This document shows, in pieces, positions 55,735-64,000 of a DNA stretch of 64,000 nt. The position numbers and the translations under genes were made by a program. The notes under the pieces are model-generated. The model was not told the origin of the DNA. It searched no databases and was given only the letters and a program-made list of their open reading frames with translations. Location: the NCBI GenBank assembly GCA_027491195.1, contig JAIXWQ010000009.1, positions 186,001-250,000 on the forward strand. The letters run 5' to 3'. Source of the stretch: Cytophagaceae bacterium. GTDB lineage: Bacteria; Bacteroidota; Bacteroidia; Cytophagales; Spirosomataceae. Each line of letters starts with the position of its first letter. Within the stretch, counting starts at the first letter, position 1.

Positions 55735-56649
55735 TTATTTGAGTTTTTTCGAATCAATAAATGCAATTTTCTCTTTTATTTGATTGAAAAATTCTGGGTA
55801 TAATTTTTTTAGCCATATCTCTGATTTGTTAGGGTATAACCTTTTATATCCTCCGTGGAAATGGACAAAATCAAACTGATTTACACCTTCTTCAATCTTT
55901 TGTTTTTGATAATCAACGTCAAATTGAATAGAGTTTTCAATAAGTGTATTTACCTTTTTAGTGGCCATCTTGGTTTCAACATAAAGATAATGCTGCTCGT
56001 AAATGCAGTTTAAAAATGAGCAAGTAATCTTATCTTTTGGCAAAGTCAAATTTGTATTTAAATCCTTAAACGCTTTATTGGCATAGCTATTGATAAAATG
56101 GAAGTCTTTGCCACCCATAATTCCTAAGTTATAGTCATTGTAGGAAAAACTGGGATTTTTAAATTTTATAAGTAACTCCTTTGAAAAAAATGCGTTTGAC
56201 GATATCAATTTTTGGATAATTTTATCATAGCGTTTTAGGTAACGGTCATCGTAATGGAATTCAACAACTAAATCGTAATCTAACATTGAAATGTCAAATA
56301 GCTTCCCTAGTACTACATCAACATCGAAATGCACAAATGGTTCTTCGGTACTTGCATAGGTGAGTAATTTTCCTGCCGCCCAAAAATCCGTTGGCAAATC
56401 TGATATTTTATCCAATTCGGTTGAATAGGAGTCGTAGGGGAATTCGAAAAAATCAATCCAGGATTTTTTACCTTCCTTATCAGTAACTAAGTGAACCTTT
56501 GGGAAAAATTCTTTAATACTCAGCAAGGATAAGGCCCAAGTGTAAATAAATTGTTTGTCATCATTAAATCCACCTTGATACCGCGATTCAAAAGAACAAG
56601 ATGCAGGTTTTATAAATGGTTTCGTCCAAAAGGTTTGAATGGCTTTCAT
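55735..56649 (-). CDS. Glycosyltransferase-like protein (DUF6734-like)
   Basis: A 304-residue soluble protein. The core resembles a GT-A fold: PFVHFDVDVVLGKLFD (residues 104-119) holds a D-x-D of the kind that binds the metal and nucleotide sugar, and YNDYNLGIMGGKD resembles the later N-x-G-x-x-G segment. I believe it belongs to the family labelled DUF6734, but cannot check. The ATG at 56649 overlaps the preceding gene by 4 bp (ATGA), and the longer upstream start is less likely. In the context of a small peptide and proteases it could glycosylate the peptide or a surface polymer. Noticeably AT-rich, like its neighbours. Confidence 0.55.
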   Translation of the reverse strand: MKAIQTFWTKPFIKPASCSFESRYQGGFNDDKQFIYTWALSLLSIKEFFPKVHLVTDKEGKKSWIDFFEFPYDSYSTELDKISDLPTDFWAAGKLLTYASTEEPFVHFDVDVVLGKLFDISMLDYDLVVEFHYDDRYLKRYDKIIQKLISSNAFFSKELLIKFKNPSFSYNDYNLGIMGGKDFHFINSYANKAFKDLNTNLTLPKDKITCSFLNCIYEQHYLYVETKMATKKVNTLIENSIQFDVDYQKQKIEEGVNQFDFVHFHGGYKRLYPNKSEIWLKKLYPEFFNQIKEKIAFIDSKKLK

Positions 56650-57206
56650 ATTAAAGTTATGATCAGGTAAGCGAGCATAAATATGCAACTGATAGCAAGT
56701 TTAGTGACGACTTTTTGATCTAACTCAATATAGAAGAATAGGCAGGTAGCCCCGATGGAAAAGTTGTCCGCTATGTGACTAAACTTGTGATAATTTGTGT
56801 TTTCTATTTGACTAATTAAACTACTTGATGTTAAGTCAATCAGAGGAATTTCGTCCAATAGAAATAGCCAAACGAACCCGAGCTTTAGAAACTCTGTTGC
56901 AATAAATATTATGGTAGTCGTTTGAAATGCTAAAATTAAAGAGTTAAATGGTAATTTTTCAAAGCATAATTTCGAAGCATACCAAACAGATGAGAAGAGG
57001 GCTATAATTAAAAGCCAACTATAAAATGTAGAAAAAATCAAAGAGAAAATTGCGGTAATCCTTGCGATTAACTTTCCCTCTAAGGGGACATTTTGGAGAA
57101 GGACCTCTAGAGCAACAGTAGAAAACATTATTTTACAAAGTAGATAAAATAAAAGAAATCCTATTAGGCTTTTGATTCGATTATTTGAGTTAATGGTATA
57201 TCGCAT
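56646..57206 (-). CDS. Unknown integral membrane protein of operon B
   Basis: A 186-residue protein with about five hydrophobic helices. It starts with a basic stretch (NSNNRIKS) and carries one longer extracytoplasmic or cytoplasmic loop around residues 120-150. It is not recognised, but general shape and size recall Yip1-like membrane proteins. Its start lies inside the last 17 bp of the SpoIIM-like gene, and its end overlaps the next gene by 4 bp, so it is translationally linked to both and may form a complex with the SpoIIM-like protein. Confidence 0.6.
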   Translation of the reverse strand: MRYTINSNNRIKSLIGFLLFYLLCKIMFSTVALEVLLQNVPLEGKLIARITAIFSLIFSTFYSWLLIIALFSSVWYASKLCFEKLPFNSLILAFQTTTIIFIATEFLKLGFVWLFLLDEIPLIDLTSSSLISQIENTNYHKFSHIADNFSIGATCLFFYIELDQKVVTKLAISCIFMLAYLIITLI

Positions 57207-57711
57207 AAGTTTCTATTATAGTGGCAAAAACTAAAATCAAAAACGGTATTAATAGTGCCTCAGGGCTTGGCAAATCAATTTCAATTCCCTTATCAGAGTA
57301 TAATTTTATTAGCCAATCAAATCCTCTTAAACCCAATGCACCAAACAAGCTAAATGAAATTATTTCAAATGGAACGTGTCCAAATAAATTTATTAGTGGT
57401 TGATTGTGTTGAAAATCCAATGTTGATAATTTTAAAAATGGGAAGAAATAAATGCCAAATAAATATCCATTGAATATTAGAATAATAAGTGTAATCAGCC
57501 CCCCGGATAAATAACCTAAATAGCAACAGAGTAGCCCAACTATACTGTTGCTTTTAAGTATATAGTAAAATATTTCTATGAATGATTTTGAGTTATAAAT
57601 TGATACTTTATTTTTTGTGAATTCTGTTATGTCAAAGTCTATTAAGTAGGCGATTAAGAGCCCTATGTGCCAGCAAGTCAAACAAATAATAATTTTCGGG
57701 GCCCTATACAT
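57190..57711 (-). CDS. SpoIIM/DUF95-like membrane protein
   Basis: A 173-residue integral membrane protein with five hydrophobic helices. The segment NGYLFGIYF and the later FGHVPFEIISFSLFGALGLRG reproduce the pattern N-G-x-x-x-G followed by P-H-(G)-x-x-E-x-x-x-x-x-x-x-x-G-L-x-x of the SpoIIM/DUF95 family. DUF95 proteins are conserved maturation or secretion partners in circular bacteriocin clusters such as AS-48, and others occur beside ABC transporters. Placed next to a bacteriocin-like peptide gene and a protease, a role in peptide export, maturation or self-protection is the best guess. Confidence 0.68.
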   Translation of the reverse strand: MYRAPKIIICLTCWHIGLLIAYLIDFDITEFTKNKVSIYNSKSFIEIFYYILKSNSIVGLLCCYLGYLSGGLITLIILIFNGYLFGIYFFPFLKLSTLDFQHNQPLINLFGHVPFEIISFSLFGALGLRGFDWLIKLYSDKGIEIDLPSPEALLIPFLILVFATIIETYAIYH

Positions 57712-57718
57712 TTTTGAT

Positions 57719-58597
57719 TTATGACTTAATGTATTCTAATCTCTCAATTAAGGTAGGGTGAGTAGCTGTTTTGTTTTGAAGTTGTCCGCCGGTAACCGTA
57801 TTCAATTTTTTTAATACTTCTGCATAGTTGTTTATCCCTACAGTTTCTGCAGCAAATTTGTCAGCTGAGTACTCAGTCTTTTTTTGGAAAAAACTAAAAA
57901 TTTCATTTCCTAAAACAAATAAAATGCCAAACGAAACCCCTTTGAAAATCCAATTAAGTTTATTTAAAAGAATTAGGGGTAGTACAACATATTGATGTAA
58001 TAGCAATAGCGAGATTTGTATAAGTATCATAAGTAGCGTTAAGTAAAGCATATGACGCTTTATTGTATGCCCGATCTCATGTGCTATAATAGCTTTTAAT
58101 TCTTCACTTGTAAACTGCTTTAAAAGCGGCGCCCCAATTAATATGATATTTGTAAATGGGAGAACCCCTGTGGCGAAGGCATTAACTACATTTTGATTAA
58201 TTACTCGAATTTTAATCGTCGTATTCATCTCTTTATTAACCAGTAATTCCAATTCATCATCTACTTCATATTTACTTGTTCTAATCAAGACTATAAGAGG
58301 GAAAAGAATTGGGCTGAGACCTACTAATAATATGATAAAGGCGATTCCGATTGAAGTACTTTCGATTTGGCTTTTTTCTTGTGCCTGTAGCAAAGGGAAA
58401 AATGTAAAATTTAATAAAAATAATGCGCTACTTAAAATTGTAAAATTTACCCAATCAAAAGAGGATTGAAATTGTTTGATATAATCATTGAGTTTGTGTT
58501 TTTTAGACAATATCGCATTAGTGATAATTGAAATGATCATGACAAATACGGGTAAACCCGTTAAAATAACTGCGAACTTTAATCGATTCATATCCAT
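57719..58597 (-). CDS. M48-family membrane metalloprotease
   Basis: A 292-residue integral membrane zinc protease. It carries the HEIGH motif at residues 173-177 in AIIAHEIGHTIKRH, and the third zinc ligand at E240 in KTEYSADKFAAE. Hydrophobic helices lie at about 8-28, 50-68, 85-105, 185-210 and 218-232. The layout is like HtpX/Ste24-type proteases, which cleave within or beside the membrane. Second gene of operon B, 66 bp after the glycine-zipper peptide gene, from which it is separated by a 15-bp hairpin. It is the natural candidate for removing the peptide leader. M48 proteases also serve in general quality control, so the link is contextual. Confidence 0.85.
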   Translation of the reverse strand: MDMNRLKFAVILTGLPVFVMIISIITNAILSKKHKLNDYIKQFQSSFDWVNFTILSSALFLLNFTFFPLLQAQEKSQIESTSIGIAFIILLVGLSPILFPLIVLIRTSKYEVDDELELLVNKEMNTTIKIRVINQNVVNAFATGVLPFTNIILIGAPLLKQFTSEELKAIIAHEIGHTIKRHMLYLTLLMILIQISLLLLHQYVVLPLILLNKLNWIFKGVSFGILFVLGNEIFSFFQKKTEYSADKFAAETVGINNYAEVLKKLNTVTGGQLQNKTATHPTLIERLEYIKS

Positions 58598-58616
58598 GAT
58601 ATTTTCTTTGATTTGT

Positions 58617-58652
58617 TTAATAGAAGAGTTGTTTATTCAACTCTTCTATTAA
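58617..58652 (-). terminator. 15-bp perfect hairpin between the peptide gene and the M48 gene
   Basis: TTAATAGAAGAGTTG and its exact complement CAACTCTTCTATTAA enclose a 6-nt loop. On the minus (transcribed) strand no long T-run follows, so it may be a leaky terminator, an RNase-processing site or a 3' stabiliser that keeps the peptide mRNA more abundant than the downstream genes. Confidence 0.6.
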
Positions 58653-58663
58653 TTAAAATAAAA

Positions 58664-58921
58664 TTAAAGACCGCCTAGAAATCCGCCAATACGACCACCA
58701 AGGACAGTATTCCCACCAAAATAAGTGCCGATAACCCCACCAATTACTGCTCCTCCATATACGCCGACTGCACCTGCAGCATATGAAGTTTTTTGACTCC
58801 ATCCATAATGATCCGCAATAGTAGCAGCTGCGTTAGCTTTAGGAACATTAGCGTTCATTTTTAATAAACTCAATAATGTAACTGAGAATAATAGTCCGAC
58901 AAATAGATTTACTTTTTTCAT
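58664..58921 (-). CDS. Glycine-zipper small peptide, bacteriocin-like
   Basis: An 85-residue peptide. Residues 1-33 are a signal- or leader-like segment (MKKVNLFVGLLFSVTLLSLL, then a stretch ending in ANAAA). Residues 34-85 start ADHYGWSQKTSYAAG and continue with repeated G-x-x-x-G motifs (GVYGGAVIGGVIG, GGRIGGFLGG), giving a compact membrane-inserting helical hairpin. Class II two-peptide bacteriocins have similar G-x-x-x-G cores, but glycine-zipper outer-membrane proteins do as well. Supporting a secreted effector are its first position in an operon with a protease and a SpoIIM-like protein, its own hairpin downstream, and the long leader shared with operon A. Confidence 0.65.
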   Translation of the reverse strand: MKKVNLFVGLLFSVTLLSLLKMNANVPKANAAATIADHYGWSQKTSYAAGAVGVYGGAVIGGVIGTYFGGNTVLGGRIGGFLGGL

Positions 58922-59044: not shown

Positions 59045-59114
59045 GGGGGAACAGATGGGGCCTAATTGATTGCTTAGGCCGAGGTAAATGTAAGGTTCTT
59101 TATTTGATAAACAA
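59045..59114 (-). promoter_or_regulatory. Shared promoter-hairpin leader element, operon B copy
   Basis: On the minus strand: TTG (59112-59114), 19 bp, TACATTTA (59085-59092), then a perfect 7-bp hairpin GGCCTAA / TTAGGCC around an 8-nt loop, then CATCTGTTCCCCC. About 50 bp match the copy at 63911. The hairpin falls at the predicted 5' end of the transcript. It starts 124 bp upstream of the peptide gene. Confidence 0.65.
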
Positions 59115-59136
59115 CTGTATTGGAGATCGGTCATTT

Positions 59137-59176: not shown

Positions 59177-59290
59177 TCAATTTGAACGGCATCGACGAAC
59201 TATTTTAACAATTAATACAACGACTGTAGCACAGATTATCCGAACTAGTATACCTGCGATCATGGATTCAAAAGGGGATACTATTGCCAT
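59177..59290 (-). CDS. 37-residue putative membrane peptide
   Basis: A small ORF starting 2 bp after the stop codon of the CarboxypepD-repeat gene. Residues 11-31 (IAGILVRIICATVVVLIVKIV) form one hydrophobic helix, followed by the basic tail RRCRSN. It could be a holin- or immunity-like peptide, or a second effector. Evidence is limited to its reading frame, composition and tight spacing. Confidence 0.4.
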   Translation of the reverse strand: MAIVSPFESMIAGILVRIICATVVVLIVKIVRRCRSN

Positions 59291-59292
59291 AA

Positions 59293-60489
59293 CTAGTTCT
59301 TTTTTGTTCCCAGCGCATTCCCAAACGCACCCTTCCCCTCCAGATTTTGAATGGCTCTGTTTTGTTCAGGAGTGCGTTCTATGACGGCATTTCTTTTCCA
59401 GTATTCAGGGTCATAGGCGAACTTTTTAATGACTTCCCTATCATTTCCACCTGCATTAGCTTTTTCATAAGGCATCGCGGTCGCTTGGGTACTCGTATCA
59501 AAGAGATAAGTCAACGAGGAAACGTGAATGGGTAGGATTTCTTTTTTTAAGTGGTAATCCACGCGGTATTGTACTTTCAGGTATTCTATCGATCGGCCAC
59601 CGGCAACATCTTTAAAGCTTATTTCGAATTCATATTTTGGGTTGACCATTTTCATTACCCAAAGCGGATGCTTATTCTTAAGTTTCGATCCTAAATCGGA
59701 GTGGGTAATAAAGGTAATTTTCAAAATATCATAGGTGTCGGTGTCTATGAAAACGGTTCCATATTTAGAGTTTGCTTGGGCTGGCAATTTATTGGTAAAG
59801 TGGATCTCCGCTATTTCCCGCTCGCCCTCTTTTCGAAGGTTCGCGATGCTGTAGTGGTATAGATCACTACCTGTTAGGCTAATGACTGCGTGCCTGTTCG
59901 TATCGAGGTCGATGAGTCCGTAGGCTTTGGTATAATAGGAGAAGTCTTCAAATTTATAGACCGCATCCTGAGCCGCATATCGACCCTTTAATACAGCGGT
60001 TCCTTCTAAGCGACTATTGCTTGATTTAGTCGCATAGATGATTTCCTGCCACTCGCTGGTTTGTTGATTTATTTGGGTGCTTTGTCTGTAAATGGCCTTG
60101 CCGTAAAACTTTAGAGAAAAATTCTGCATTAGTTTTTGGGCGGCATGAGAGACTAATTCTCTAGCATAGTTCCCCACACGAACTTCGGGTAGTAATATGG
60201 GGGTGGCTTTTAGTCGAATGATGTGATCGCCATTTTCTTCTAATTTGAGAACTGATTTTCCATAGGAAAGATGGGAGATGATTAATTCAGCAGGAAGCTC
60301 GTTAACGAGAATGGAGAAATCGCCCATTTCGTTCGAAAGGGTGTTTCTGTTGTCCTTAGTACTTATACTAGCAAAAGGGATTTTATCACCTGTTTCAGCA
60401 TCGACAATTTGACCTTTTAAGGAGATTTGTGCCGAACTAGTTAGATAGATTAGGAGCAGGATAAGGAGAGTATAGCTATATTTTTTCAT
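59293..60489 (-). CDS. CarboxypepD-repeat exported protein
   Basis: A 398-residue exported protein (signal segment YSYTLLILLLIYLTSSAQ). Residues 20-110 form a carboxypeptidase regulatory-like beta-sandwich (LKGQIVDAETGDKIPFASIS, MGDFSILV, ELIISHLSYG), the same module found at the N-terminus of TonB-dependent receptors. The remaining 280 residues form a beta-rich region without a plug or barrel. Stand-alone proteins of this kind are frequent in Bacteroidota and of unknown function. It lies after the terminator of the 53-residue peptide gene, so it is expressed by read-through or from its own promoter. It may be an outer-membrane or periplasmic binding partner. Confidence 0.72.
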   Translation of the reverse strand: MKKYSYTLLILLLIYLTSSAQISLKGQIVDAETGDKIPFASISTKDNRNTLSNEMGDFSILVNELPAELIISHLSYGKSVLKLEENGDHIIRLKATPILLPEVRVGNYARELVSHAAQKLMQNFSLKFYGKAIYRQSTQINQQTSEWQEIIYATKSSNSRLEGTAVLKGRYAAQDAVYKFEDFSYYTKAYGLIDLDTNRHAVISLTGSDLYHYSIANLRKEGEREIAEIHFTNKLPAQANSKYGTVFIDTDTYDILKITFITHSDLGSKLKNKHPLWVMKMVNPKYEFEISFKDVAGGRSIEYLKVQYRVDYHLKKEILPIHVSSLTYLFDTSTQATAMPYEKANAGGNDREVIKKFAYDPEYWKRNAVIERTPEQNRAIQNLEGKGAFGNALGTKKN

Positions 60490-60500
60490 ATGTTTCTTTT

Positions 60501-60524
60501 AAAAAAGGGGAGCTAGAGCCCCCC
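60501..60524 (-). terminator. Rho-independent terminator after the 53-residue peptide gene
   Basis: Minus-strand stem GGGGGGC / GCTCCCC (one G-U pair, loop TCTA) followed directly by six T residues. It begins 10 bp after the peptide stop codon. Confidence 0.8.
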
Positions 60525-60534
60525 TCTCATTCAA

Positions 60535-60696
60535 TTACTCAAATTGGACACTAGCGCTAGCAGTGACAGACGTGCCTTTCTCATCTGTTGTAGCACTAGT
60601 GGATAGTGTCCACTTGTTCTCAAGACGCTCTTCTAATTCTTCCACTTCGAATAGCGCAATTAATTCTGGGGTAATGTTGTTTTTTACAGGTTTCAT
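60535..60696 (-). CDS. 53-residue RiPP precursor-like peptide
   Basis: A small ORF. Residues 1-28 are an acidic helical leader-like part (ITPELIALFEVEELEERLEN), and residues 29-53 form a Ser/Thr/Ala-rich core (WTLSTSATTDEKG, then TSVTASASVQFE) with nine Ser/Thr. There is no cysteine, so lanthionine formation is excluded unless a cysteine comes from elsewhere. No signal peptide is present. It sits 83 bp after a protease fused to a PqqD-like domain, which in other pathways binds leader peptides, and is followed at once by a terminator. These are the usual marks of a RiPP precursor gene. I do not recognise the peptide family. Confidence 0.62.
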   Translation of the reverse strand: MKPVKNNITPELIALFEVEELEERLENKWTLSTSATTDEKGTSVTASASVQFE

Positions 60697-60779
60697 AATG
60701 GGTAGTATTAATGGTTAGAGGGTCTGATGAATCCCAATTCTGCTGACCCTTTAAAGCAGGTTTTGGGAGGACTTTGTGA

Positions 60780-61949
60780 TTACCTAAGCAGCGATTTTAA
60801 TTGACTGATTAGAAATCGAATGGCTAGTATATAAAACAGCAGGATATGAATGAGTTGAACATGTAGGTCTTGAATGTGTAGGTTTAATTGACTCACTTTT
60901 ACGACTATCTGATAGATTGAAAAAGGGAATCGGATGATCTCTTTTTGGTAGCTCATCAGCGTATAGCCAAGAACAAGTAAAATGAAGAAGGTATTCAAAA
61001 AGCCGTAGGCAAAAAGTAACATTTCGCGGCGGCTGGCATTTACTTTAAAGTTATTTTTTCGCCAAGAATGAAGGAAAGATCTTCGCATGACTTTGGATAA
61101 AACCTGCTTAGATTTCAGGAGTAGATTAGGAGTATTTGTTAGATCCGACAGTAACCAGTAGCCATCAAAGCGAACGAAAGGGTTAAACTCCCACAGCACA
61201 AAAACACTGATCGATAAGGAGGCGAATAAACAGACTGGGGATTGGGAAATTAAGTAAACAATACTAAGAATTACTGCATACAAAACCTCCGCAAAAATAC
61301 CCCCTAAGTTGGCAATAATTCGTTGCTCTTTGGTCCCCATCCAAATGTTCGTTATTTCAGCATACATGACAGGTAGTATGAAATAAAATCCAAATCCTAT
61401 GCCACCAGGCTTTAACTTATATTTAGCGCAGGCAGCAATGTGACCCAATTCGTGGATGAGCATGGTAGGGTAAATCAAAGCCATCAAGTTCAAGTAATTT
61501 ACTTGGTTTATAGAAGGAGATTCGAAGCCTATGGCCATTCCGAGTAAGAATAAAATCATCGCACCCACGGAAAACCAAAATACCAATGGCTTGAAAAAGG
61601 GCTGAAGAGGAATCGACAAATAACGGGCTATGCGCGCGTTCAGCAGTGGAATTTTTAGTTTTAAATAGGCATTTTTAAGACTCGGTTTTTCAGGTACAGC
61701 GTCCTCCTGAATAATTTGATATCCCCCTAGCTTTTCATCCACCAAATCCCGAAAAGATTGCATCGAGATCGTTTGATTAAATGACTGATTAAACACTTTA
61801 TGTGCTGCTTCTAAACTAGTCGCTTCAGAAAGAATGTGTACTAATTCCGTGGTTGCGCGATTGATTAACAAATGCCGATTTTCATCAATTTGCAAAACGG
61901 AACTTGTTGCATCAAAAGGCCTGATTTGTAAATTTTCTTTTACTAGCAT
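60780..61949 (-). CDS. PqqD-like domain/M50 membrane zinc metalloprotease fusion
   Basis: A 389-residue protein. Residues 5-80 (LQIRPFDATSSVLQIDENRH, then INRATTELVHIL) have the strand-helix pattern of PqqD-like RiPP recognition elements. Residues 115-389 form a multi-spanning M50 protease with HELGH at 166-170 in LIHELGHIAAC and the later FNPFVRFDGYWLLSDLTNTP, which includes the third-ligand aspartate region. The same M50 subfamily includes YydH-type enzymes of peptide natural-product operons. It likely binds the 53-residue peptide by its N-terminal domain and cleaves or exports it. Its start overlaps the preceding stop by 7 bp. Confidence 0.8.
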   Translation of the reverse strand: MLVKENLQIRPFDATSSVLQIDENRHLLINRATTELVHILSEATSLEAAHKVFNQSFNQTISMQSFRDLVDEKLGGYQIIQEDAVPEKPSLKNAYLKLKIPLLNARIARYLSIPLQPFFKPLVFWFSVGAMILFLLGMAIGFESPSINQVNYLNLMALIYPTMLIHELGHIAACAKYKLKPGGIGFGFYFILPVMYAEITNIWMGTKEQRIIANLGGIFAEVLYAVILSIVYLISQSPVCLFASLSISVFVLWEFNPFVRFDGYWLLSDLTNTPNLLLKSKQVLSKVMRRSFLHSWRKNNFKVNASRREMLLFAYGFLNTFFILLVLGYTLMSYQKEIIRFPFSIYQIVVKVSQLNLHIQDLHVQLIHILLFYILAIRFLISQLKSLLR

Positions 61950-63838
61950 GATGCCGTGGATTTAGTCAATTGATATAAGGTATTCAACACCGTGCTTGTA
62001 GTGAAAAGTCGGTTGTGATCGTCAACAATACAATTCACGCCAAAGGAGCTTTTTCTCCATCGCTTAACACTGCTCGGATCTAGGACATCGGTAGCCGGAA
62101 TTCGAAGGATGCGGGTCGTTAGCCAGCTGCCATCGGTCATCTGATTTTTTAAGAGCCAGTCCACTCCTTTTGTAATCGATTTATCGAATGCTTTGGCATC
62201 ATAGGCATGTAAGGCTTTAATCGCCAAAGCGGTATAAAAAGCACTCGGTTCCTGCGTTGCTGGATTAGACCAATAGCCACTCGTTTCTTGTTCATTCGCT
62301 AGCCAAAGCGCCGGCGTTTCACAACGACTTTTTAATTCGGAATGATGCGATAAGGCTTGAATGCCAAAAGAGGTCGCGTACACATCGCTTGTCCACCAAT
62401 AGGAACTCCAATGGGTTTTATATTCTAGTAGTGAGGCCAGGTGCAGACAACTTATTTCAAAGTCTAATCTAAGCGATGGAATATCAGCTAAAACATAGGC
62501 TGCCGCAGCGCTAACACAGGCATGTGAGTTTGTCCAACCTTTCACAGAAACAGAAACGGGTAAATCTAATTTCTTCCGCAAAGTTGTAGGATCCCGGTAG
62601 GTAACCCACCCGCCATCTGCATTCATAAAGGCTAGCCAATTCCGCTGTGTTAGGTCAGTGTCAAAGCCCATTTTTTGTTGGAAACCCACGAGAAAACTAC
62701 TCGAATCTCCGTCTTGAATCATCGCCCCATTGAAAGCGGTGGAGGAAATTGAAATAACCTTTTGTAGTACCGGTTTTAATAGGGGGTTCGAGTTATCAAT
62801 CTCGGCTAATTGCATTCCTATGTAGACGCTTGTCCAGGTGGTGCTTTGGCCAGCGGAGGTCATAAAATCTGTCCATTCAGTTGAATCTTCGATGTTCTTC
62901 GCTAGGTAACCAAGAGCATTTTCTATTGAGGAATCTAGGGAATTATACTTCAAAATGGAGAAGCTTTTTTGGGACTTAATTTCCGTTTTCAAGAATAGGT
63001 CATCTACTTCTTGGAGGTGTGATTGACAGCTACTGATTTGTTTCTCCAGGAAGCTAAAAAAAGAAGAAAGACCTGCTGATGAAGCAATAAGAGCGCTTTT
63101 TTCAAAATGTGCTATCGCTAAACCGAGGTTTTTTTGTGCGATGCCGGACACATATAAATAGGTGTGAAGTAGGGCAGGATCCTGGGTTACGATCCCGTTT
63201 TGCTTCAAGTACATCTGCGTTAAAGACATCGGATAGGTCCATTGGCCTTCTTTGAAATCTAGTTTAAAATCGTCGATATCATCCATGTACTGAAGACCGA
63301 TGTGGAGCTGGGAAATACAGTCGATTAATTCATCTCGCCTCAAGTTGAAACCGGCTAAAAAGGCAAGGGAATCTACGGCAGCAAGGCTCATGGCAGATTT
63401 CCCAATCGCTATTTCTTGGAAAATCTCTGGAGTCATTTCCTCCTTTTTATGAGAACCCTTTTTCTCTGATATAACAGAGTTAAAATACCTCGATTTCAAG
63501 TTACTAAACTGCTCCCAAAACGGACTGCCCTCTGGATACAAGGCAGCAAGCCCGCGCATGGCTTTTTCATAGAATTCAAAGCTTAATCGCATTTCACCAA
63601 GAGAGAAATGCGAGGAATCAATCAACTGATCAAAGCATAACAGAAATCGAAAATAGAGGTAACTGCTTAAAGAAAGCGACTCTAGTTGGGCAGCACTTAT
63701 CGAGGGAAAAGCCGGTGCGAGGTAGCTTATTAAATGAAGATATAAGTGGTGCTCAGACAGCATTTTAGGGTCTAAAAGCGCCTCTTTTTCAGCGGTAGGA
63801 ATCGACAGTGTTCCTATGTAGTTGTGATAAAACGACAT
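61943..63838 (-). CDS. Two-domain terpenoid enzyme: isoprenyl-synthase-like plus class II cyclase-like toroid
   Basis: A 631-residue soluble protein, first gene of operon A. Residues 30-290 resemble a trans-isoprenyl diphosphate synthase or class I terpenoid fold: CFDQLID (D70 and D74, a reduced first aspartate motif) and LQYMDDIDDFKLD (residues 182-194, second aspartate motif). Residues 300-631 are an alpha/alpha toroid related to class II cyclases, with QDGDSSS (376-382) where D-x-D-D is expected, and QW-like repeats WLAFMNADGGW, WLANEQETSGYW and WLLKNQMTDGSW, plus YWWTSDVYATSF. One catalytic aspartate of D-x-D-D is serine, so chemistry may be altered. It could make or attach a terpenoid group. 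I know of no characterised protein of this exact layout. Confidence 0.7.
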   Translation of the reverse strand: MSFYHNYIGTLSIPTAEKEALLDPKMLSEHHLYLHLISYLAPAFPSISAAQLESLSLSSYLYFRFLLCFDQLIDSSHFSLGEMRLSFEFYEKAMRGLAALYPEGSPFWEQFSNLKSRYFNSVISEKKGSHKKEEMTPEIFQEIAIGKSAMSLAAVDSLAFLAGFNLRRDELIDCISQLHIGLQYMDDIDDFKLDFKEGQWTYPMSLTQMYLKQNGIVTQDPALLHTYLYVSGIAQKNLGLAIAHFEKSALIASSAGLSSFFSFLEKQISSCQSHLQEVDDLFLKTEIKSQKSFSILKYNSLDSSIENALGYLAKNIEDSTEWTDFMTSAGQSTTWTSVYIGMQLAEIDNSNPLLKPVLQKVISISSTAFNGAMIQDGDSSSFLVGFQQKMGFDTDLTQRNWLAFMNADGGWVTYRDPTTLRKKLDLPVSVSVKGWTNSHACVSAAAAYVLADIPSLRLDFEISCLHLASLLEYKTHWSSYWWTSDVYATSFGIQALSHHSELKSRCETPALWLANEQETSGYWSNPATQEPSAFYTALAIKALHAYDAKAFDKSITKGVDWLLKNQMTDGSWLTTRILRIPATDVLDPSSVKRWRKSSFGVNCIVDDHNRLFTTSTVLNTLYQLTKSTASC

Positions 63839-63910
63839 ACCTTATTATTCTAGTGGTTAGCAAAAGCGTGATCACCCTAAAAAAGGGGAAAACAGGGAAT
63901 AAATGAGGGG

Positions 63911-63977
63911 GGGGGAACAGATGTGCCTTTTGATGATTAAGGCCGGGGTAAATGTAGGATTGTTTTTTGGAAAATAA
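63911..63977 (-). promoter_or_regulatory. Shared promoter-hairpin leader element, operon A copy
   Basis: On the minus strand: TTA (63975-63977) in place of TTG, 18 bp, TACATTTA (63949-63956), then a hairpin GCCTT / AAGGC with a 9-nt loop, CATCTGTTCCCCC and a C-run. It matches the copy at 59045 over about 50 bp with changes on both sides of the stem that keep pairing. The terpenoid-enzyme gene starts about 75 bp downstream. Confidence 0.65.
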
Positions 63978-64000
63978 CGGAAACCTCTAAAAAAGAGCTG

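Follow-up and report, generated by a model that had tools for sequence, protein, structure and literature searches.

A 64,000-nucleotide stretch of the genome of a Cytophagaceae bacterium (contig JAIXWQ010000009.1, positions 186,001 to 250,000; source genome, 2.49 Mb), which we refer to as the window, carries near its end an operon that joins a terpenoid-type enzyme to a peptide gene. The operon lies on the minus strand and, read from 63838 to 59293, encodes a fused prenyltransferase-cyclase protein by sequence (61943..63838, 631 amino acids), a membrane M50 metalloprotease (60780..61949, 389 amino acids), a 53-residue putative precursor peptide (60535..60696), and a CarboxypepD_reg-like protein (59293..60489, 398 amino acids). 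The reading frames of the fused enzyme and the protease share 7 bases, and the contig sequence beyond the end of the window identifies the 631-residue protein as the first gene of the operon. The original prediction, made from the letters of the window, had described five open reading frames (ORFs) at this place; all five are found there on the minus strand, and the observation is confirmed as real.

The fused enzyme and the M50 protease

The fused protein, with full-length relatives in genomes G002, G418, G258, G014, and others, consists of two domains. We refer to the first (residues about 1 to 290; 62969..63838), which resembles trans-isoprenyl diphosphate synthases, as the P domain. A Pfam search with residues 1 to 290 of the window protein alone gave no match, and among the 18 clear P domains that we collected, window included and all from Bacteroidota, 6 matched Pfam polyprenyl_synt weakly (best E value, 0.0046). 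A profile built from seven relatives of the P domain (A3) matched polyprenyl synthetases in the PDB at 6.5e-4, and eight residues (Y33, D70, D74, W108, D186, D187, D190, and D194) were invariant in all 18 sequences; the claim of an isoprenyl-synthase-like N-terminal domain thereby stands. These residues include both ends of a first aspartate-rich motif (FARM), D70-Q-L-I-D74 (DxxxD; 63617..63631), and the core of a second one (SARM) within Q183-Y-M-D186-D-I-D-D190-F-K-L-D194 (63257..63292). Both D70xxxD74 and D186DxxD190 agree with the pair of aspartate-rich motifs known from the isoprenoid synthase fold. The DDxxD of the SARM is retained in 18 of 18 P domains and the full QxxDDxxD in 16, the Gln before the SARM being missing in G283 and G474. 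We rejected membership in the ComQ family proper, where the FARM is present and the SARM is lost, on account of this invariant DDxxD.

The second part of the protein (residues about 300 to 631; 61946..62941), hereafter the C domain, resembles the monodomain class II terpene cyclase MstE. Residues 292 to 623 align with MstE residues 15 to 362 of a 367-residue chain at 9.7e-24, as the earlier claim of a class II cyclase-like domain would have it, and other small prenyl cyclases match down to 3e-19. In this alignment D376-G-D378-S379 (62702..62713) falls on D-A-D-T of MstE and is the counterpart of the DxDD acid motif; in class II cyclases of this type, such a motif is where the general acid sits. 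Across 15 fused sequences the motif reads DxD[ST] in 10 and DxDD in 5. Squalene-hopene cyclase membership was rejected for the window protein, which has DGDS instead of DxDD and scores under both cut-offs (Pfam SQHop_cyclase_C, 23.5 of 26.1 bits; NCBIfam hopene_cyclase, 22.3 of 431 bits).

Five fusions (L052, L053, L054, L055, and L058) carry a cyclase domain with a true DxDD, unlike the MstE-like type in appearance, and therefore the P domain may have two kinds of cyclase as fusion partner. Separately, we observed stand-alone MstE-like cyclases in L024, L026, and L027, each beside a separate protein and, in those stretches, without any M50 match; the partner protein in L024 weakly matches polyprenyl synthetase (1.1e-4).

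The 389-residue protein is, judged by its motifs and profile matches, an M50 intramembrane protease and the probable leader protease of the operon. Its HELGH zinc site (residues 166 to 170; 61440..61454) belongs to a pair of motifs, HExxH and NPxxxxDG, that is kept in 15 of 15 M50 proteins of P-domain loci (window included), among which the NCBIfam daptide profile matches 15 and the YydH/LiaK profile 14. For the window protein, daptide_HExxH covers residues 15 to 340 at 3.1e-26 (92 bits; cut-off, 300) and YydH/LiaK matches at 2.6e-14 (53 bits; cut-off, 225). The prediction of a membrane M50 protease is borne out, and since both scores lie below the cut-offs, we regard the protein as related to the daptide and epipeptide proteases and not as the same equivalog. 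Its N-terminal region, which had been called PqqD-like, is a candidate for such a domain: Pfam PqqD was found in 1 of the 15 M50 proteins (E value, 0.2), a profile comparison by hhalign gave an E value of 0.014 with 1 of 50 column shuffles scoring higher, and the daptide match begins at residue 15, the daptide protease being described in PMC10036551 as having a PqqD-like recognition domain.

The precursor and its tryptophan across Bacteroidota

In the related genome G002 the 53-residue ORF has a counterpart of 81% identity, which differs from it by 11 synonymous and 10 nonsynonymous codon changes (dN, 0.094; dS, 0.645). It is a real gene under purifying selection, conserved as a genuine precursor should be according to the original prediction, and a peptide gene accompanies the enzyme genes wherever the contig is long enough. 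Searches of Pfam and NCBIfam with the ORF returned no significant match. Its leader region (residues 1 to 26; 60619..60696), MKPVKNNITPELIALFEVEELEERLE, ends in LFEVEELEERLE, a motif common to the precursors of other loci, and is followed by Trp29 (60610..60612), the proposed prenylation site. Short ORFs near P-domain genes mostly have leaders that end like (F/L)x(V/I)xELExRxE. A strict form of this motif, which was composed only after the precursors had been inspected, occurs in 22 of 2739 small ORFs from 25 fetched loci (P-domain loci, 21; the operon remnant G417, 1), and in 0 of 17239 ORFs from base-shuffled loci.

The loci were collected from evenly sampled genomes in a survey that is not exhaustive and whose class and phylum samples overlap. 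With the full fused protein as query, 10 of 390 genomes of the order gave matches (including cyclase-only matches, a remnant, and the window's genome), and the P-domain profile matched in 13 of 395 genomes of the phylum and 5 of 395 of the class, weak matches and the window's genome included; the class sample contributed one usable extra locus, G1089. The M50 protein as query yielded two further genomes of the window's genus. A search of genome contigs returned only two loci from metagenome-assembled genomes, both of the window's genus and matching G014 and G002, and no relatives were found in viral contigs. We left out of the 18 loci three with cyclase-domain matches only (G195, G189, and G091), the G417 remnant of 80 amino acids, and five weak P matches: G585, G797, and G651, with no M50 match in the fetched stretches, and G873 and G870, which were not fetched. 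The P domain is fused to a cyclase domain in 15 of the 18 loci (split into two frames in G431) and stands alone in three (G362, G122, and G637), each with an M50 gene and a precursor. The M50 gene adjoins the P gene or lies one gene off in 16 loci, one of these 16 being cut by the contig end; the two P loci lacking it (G431 and G1089) are on short contigs. In the G417 remnant (L028, 5184-5878), from the same family as the window's genome, we observed a P fragment, a precursor containing LEERLENKW, and a short ORF, possibly the beginning of a CarboxypepD-like gene.

Tryptophan in the precursor goes with the P domain. Counting one precursor per lineage (15 lineages, with the window and G002 merged) and taking the Trp frequency in the window's long ORFs as expectation, we found Trp after the leader in 14 of 15 P-domain lineages versus 3.7 expected (P = 2.6e-8, kinship ignored), and within eight residues of the leader in 12 of 15 (P = 2.4e-11, again ignoring kinship). 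Where a locus holds several precursors the residue recurs: All six in G684 have Trp at +3 or +4, and in G283 it is present in three precursors and in a fourth that has no recognised start codon. A control set came from an M50 profile search, which matched 20 of 380 genomes of the order, 15 of them with no P-domain match in the fetched stretch. In 7 of these 15 loci we found precursors with the same style of leader, 17 in total, and Trp in 0 of 17. By lineage, Trp occurs in 14 of 15 with a P domain versus 0 of 7 without (Fisher P = 4.7e-5).

A different residue marks part of the control set. Four of the 7 control lineages have a gene for an arginase-family protein next to the M50 gene or close by, and exactly those 4 have Arg-Cys after the leader; no Arg is found there in the other 3. 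The loci with the related M50 protein, the leader, the arginase-family protein, and Arg-Cys cores (L091, L092, L094, and L101) are probably ornithine-forming peptide pathways. The main text of a paper on peptide arginases (PMC12703449) contains neither M50 nor the leader letters ELEER. In a cluster without an arginase (L096, 5204-5657), precursors of the same family have AVC replacing ARC and no Arg, and two further M50 clusters (L029 and L097) combine Cys-containing cores with a lipid A acyltransferase-like gene.

From the pairing of P with Trp and of arginase with Arg, leader and protease therefore look like a constant chassis on which the core residue goes with the tailoring enzyme. Taken as a whole, we lean somewhat toward a reading in which Bacteroidota use one interchangeable peptide chassis, whose tailoring enzyme and core residue co-vary and of which the window would be the terpene version, with a polycyclic terpenyl tryptophan. 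Its constant parts would be a leader with ELExRxE at its end and an M50 protease that reads this leader, and its exchangeable pairs P or the P-C fusion with Trp, arginase with Arg, and possibly a Tyr-directed P domain in G637.

Flanking genes and neighbouring elements

The last gene of the operon encodes a protein that matches Pfam CarbopepD_reg_2 (1.5e-8); its relatives adjoin the precursor in G002, G258, and G431. The original prediction had added to the operon a 37-residue membrane peptide. The ORF exists (59177..59290), and we rejected it as an operon member because it is not conserved: It has no counterpart in G002, where the CarboxypepD gene directly abuts a glycerate kinase gene. Likewise, the terminator proposed between the peptide gene and the CarboxypepD gene is present as a hairpin (60508..60524), the sole one in the region versus 5.6 expected in shuffled sequence, a number not above chance.

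Upstream on the same strand, the next gene encodes a class I/II aminotransferase, followed farther on by an amidohydrolase, a gamma-glutamyltransferase, and two RND efflux components. Radical SAM, LanB/LanM, and YcaO proteins, whose absence had been claimed for the window, are likewise not among these five upstream neighbours, and we saw no radical SAM gene in the operon itself. A conserved element precedes the operon (63905..63995; aligned in G000, G002, and G014), and a second copy lies at 59045-59115, 5′ of a gene for an 85-residue peptide. As these are the only two good matches in the genome, one before each gene group, the two groups may be co-regulated. The second group (55735-58921, minus strand) is separate from the operon and encodes the 85-residue Gly-rich peptide with a signal-like start, an M48 protease, a SpoIIM-like protein, a transmembrane protein, and DUF6734; it may be a second peptide operon and is absent from the corresponding place in G002. 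Just 5′ of the 85-residue gene lies a match to the Rfam DUF805b RNA (RF02914; 58944-58978, minus strand; 35.9 bits versus a gathering score of 35.6).

Proposed product and known systems

While gene order, motifs, conservation, and the company that Trp keeps with the P domain are read directly from sequence, we infer all chemical steps as well as the chain length, the cleavage site, export, and the biological role. On this basis we propose, with a probability of roughly 0.8, that the product is a ribosomal peptide whose Trp29 carries a cyclised terpene and which the M50 protease releases. The precursor would comprise the leader and a core starting near NKWTLSTS. The P domain would hold a polyprenyl diphosphate via its first aspartate-rich motif and transfer the prenyl chain onto the Trp29 indole, whereupon the MstE-like C domain would protonate the chain with its DGDS acid and fold it into rings. 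The M50 protease would read the leader, probably by its N-terminal domain, and remove it, and it may also aid export. The original prediction had the peptide processed by the M50 protein and either modified by or delivered with a terpenoid, an idea that the data support; it had named neither the tryptophan target nor the precedent of ComQ, PalQ, and ChrPC. Because Trp tracks the P domain across lineages, we favour modification over co-delivery.

The alternative that fares best, though we consider it unlikely, is that P is an ordinary isoprenyl diphosphate synthase feeding C, so that a free small terpene is made and the peptide, matured separately by the M50 protease, is only co-delivered. Fused synthase-cyclase enzymes occur in terpene pathways, the P-domain profile matches are polyprenyl synthetases, and a NUDIX gene near the G1089 locus perhaps encodes an isopentenyl diphosphate isomerase, all of which would suit it. 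It does not account for the dependence of Trp in the precursors on the presence of P, nor for the three loci that have P, an M50 gene, and a precursor yet no cyclase; moreover, the P domain has DxxxD as its first motif and a Gln ahead of the second, a feature described in Trp prenyltransferases (PMC13290415). Slightly less probable again is a linear prenyl peptide like ComX, with P acting on the peptide and C being structural or working on another substrate. The same P-only loci (G362, G122, and G637) speak for it, as the cyclase is therefore dispensable elsewhere, whereas the acid motif retained in alignment with MstE, the fusion of the cyclase domain to P in 15 of 18 loci, and the reported cyclisation of the prenyl group by the C domain of ChrPC (PMC13290415) speak against it. 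That the 53-codon ORF is no gene, or a small regulator unrelated to the enzymes, is highly improbable, since its shortness and lack of a Pfam or NCBIfam match are set against a dN far below dS, similar leaders near the same genes in other lineages, and a leader motif that no shuffled-locus ORF contained.

Several observations weigh against the proposed product. Direct searches gave the P domain no strong family match; AlphaFold models of the fused protein and the M50 protein, from alignments of 3 and 2 rows, have a mean predicted local distance difference test (pLDDT) score of 40; and the window is likened to ChrPC by domain architecture and motifs, not by alignment. The Trp statistics carry no correction for relatedness, several lineages being of one genus or family, and 8 of the 15 control loci yielded no recognisable leader-type precursor. 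Two of the counted peptides, those of G362 and G122, are divergent in their leaders and had been selected with sight of their Trp; removing them leaves 12 of 13 versus 0 of 7 (P = 1.0e-4). In G637, the P domain keeps the Gln and an M50 gene is present, yet both precursors have Tyr near the usual Trp place; its P domain is possibly a Tyr-directed prenyltransferase. G283 and G474, which lack the Gln, have Trp near the precursor C terminus (CWIG and CWLA). A radical SAM gene lies near the P gene in at least three relatives (G283, G507, and G790), where Trp might therefore serve another enzyme, and at the P locus G507 an arginase-like ORF of 200 residues is found some 3.5 kb away from the M50 gene.

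Some of these loci have further features of their own. The G637 precursors (L057, 627-830) are Cys-rich in addition to carrying Tyr; P450 genes lie near the fused enzymes without the Gln (L023 and L051), with a radical SAM gene also in L023 (G283); and radical SAM proteins in the P-domain/M50 clusters L052 (9294-10919) and L058 (5787-7196) are possible extra tailoring enzymes.

Terpene-cyclised peptides are a rare and only lately described kind of natural product; we know of no ribosomal peptide with a cyclised terpene from before 2024. To this the survey adds precursor sequences from 15 lineages together with a sequence rule for the modified residue, covering versions with the cyclase, without it, and one with Tyr replacing Trp. 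Substrate choice and the split of labour between the two domains can be tested on small, genetically encoded substrates, and the common leader and protease suggest a chassis for combining tailoring enzymes. Specialists are likeliest to take an interest in the natural control set and in the common chassis.

Among known systems, the closest likeness is to ChrPC (Hubrich et al. 2024, Chem), which a 2026 review (PMC13290415) describes as a fusion of P and C in which the C domain carries out the cyclisation of the prenyl chain. According to the same text, ComQ, PalQ, and the P domain of ChrPC are trans-IDS-like (isoprenyl-diphosphate-synthase-like) prenyltransferases specific for Trp, Trp recognition involves a Gln immediately before the SARM, and a second fusion, NctPC, joins a different P fold to an MstE-like C domain. 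By sequence, the window has the architecture of the ChrPC kind (a trans-IDS-like P domain and an MstE-like C domain) and, beside the maturase gene, a leader-bearing precursor with an internal Trp, the predicted target as in ChrPC. Q183 of the window, Q in 16 of 18 P domains, was matched to the review's description of the recognition Gln, not to its figure. Most likely, then, the operon belongs to the natural-product kind first described in 2024 and uses the same kind of enzyme as ChrPC. ComQ/ComX and PalQ/PalX resemble the window in placing an enzyme of the isoprenoid-synthase type next to a short precursor whose target residue, in the window a predicted one, is Trp; the review text describes no cyclase domain for ComQ or PalQ, whereas the window has both a cyclase domain and an M50 protease. 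MstE is a single-domain enzyme; its counterpart here shares a chain with a prenyltransferase-like domain and is encoded next to a peptide gene. As for the protease, MpaP and EpeP/YydH belong, like the window protein, to the M50 intramembrane proteases encoded in peptide operons. MpaP, the daptide protease, is described as a site-2 protease that has an N-terminal recognition element and removes the leader (PMC10036551), and EpeP is reported to suffice for production of the epipeptide EpeX, which it is thought to cut and export, although its deletion did not fully abolish EpeX production (PMC10885120). Unlike the daptide and epipeptide operons, the window operon has no recognised daptide or epipeptide tailoring gene and instead pairs its protease with the fused prenyltransferase-cyclase.

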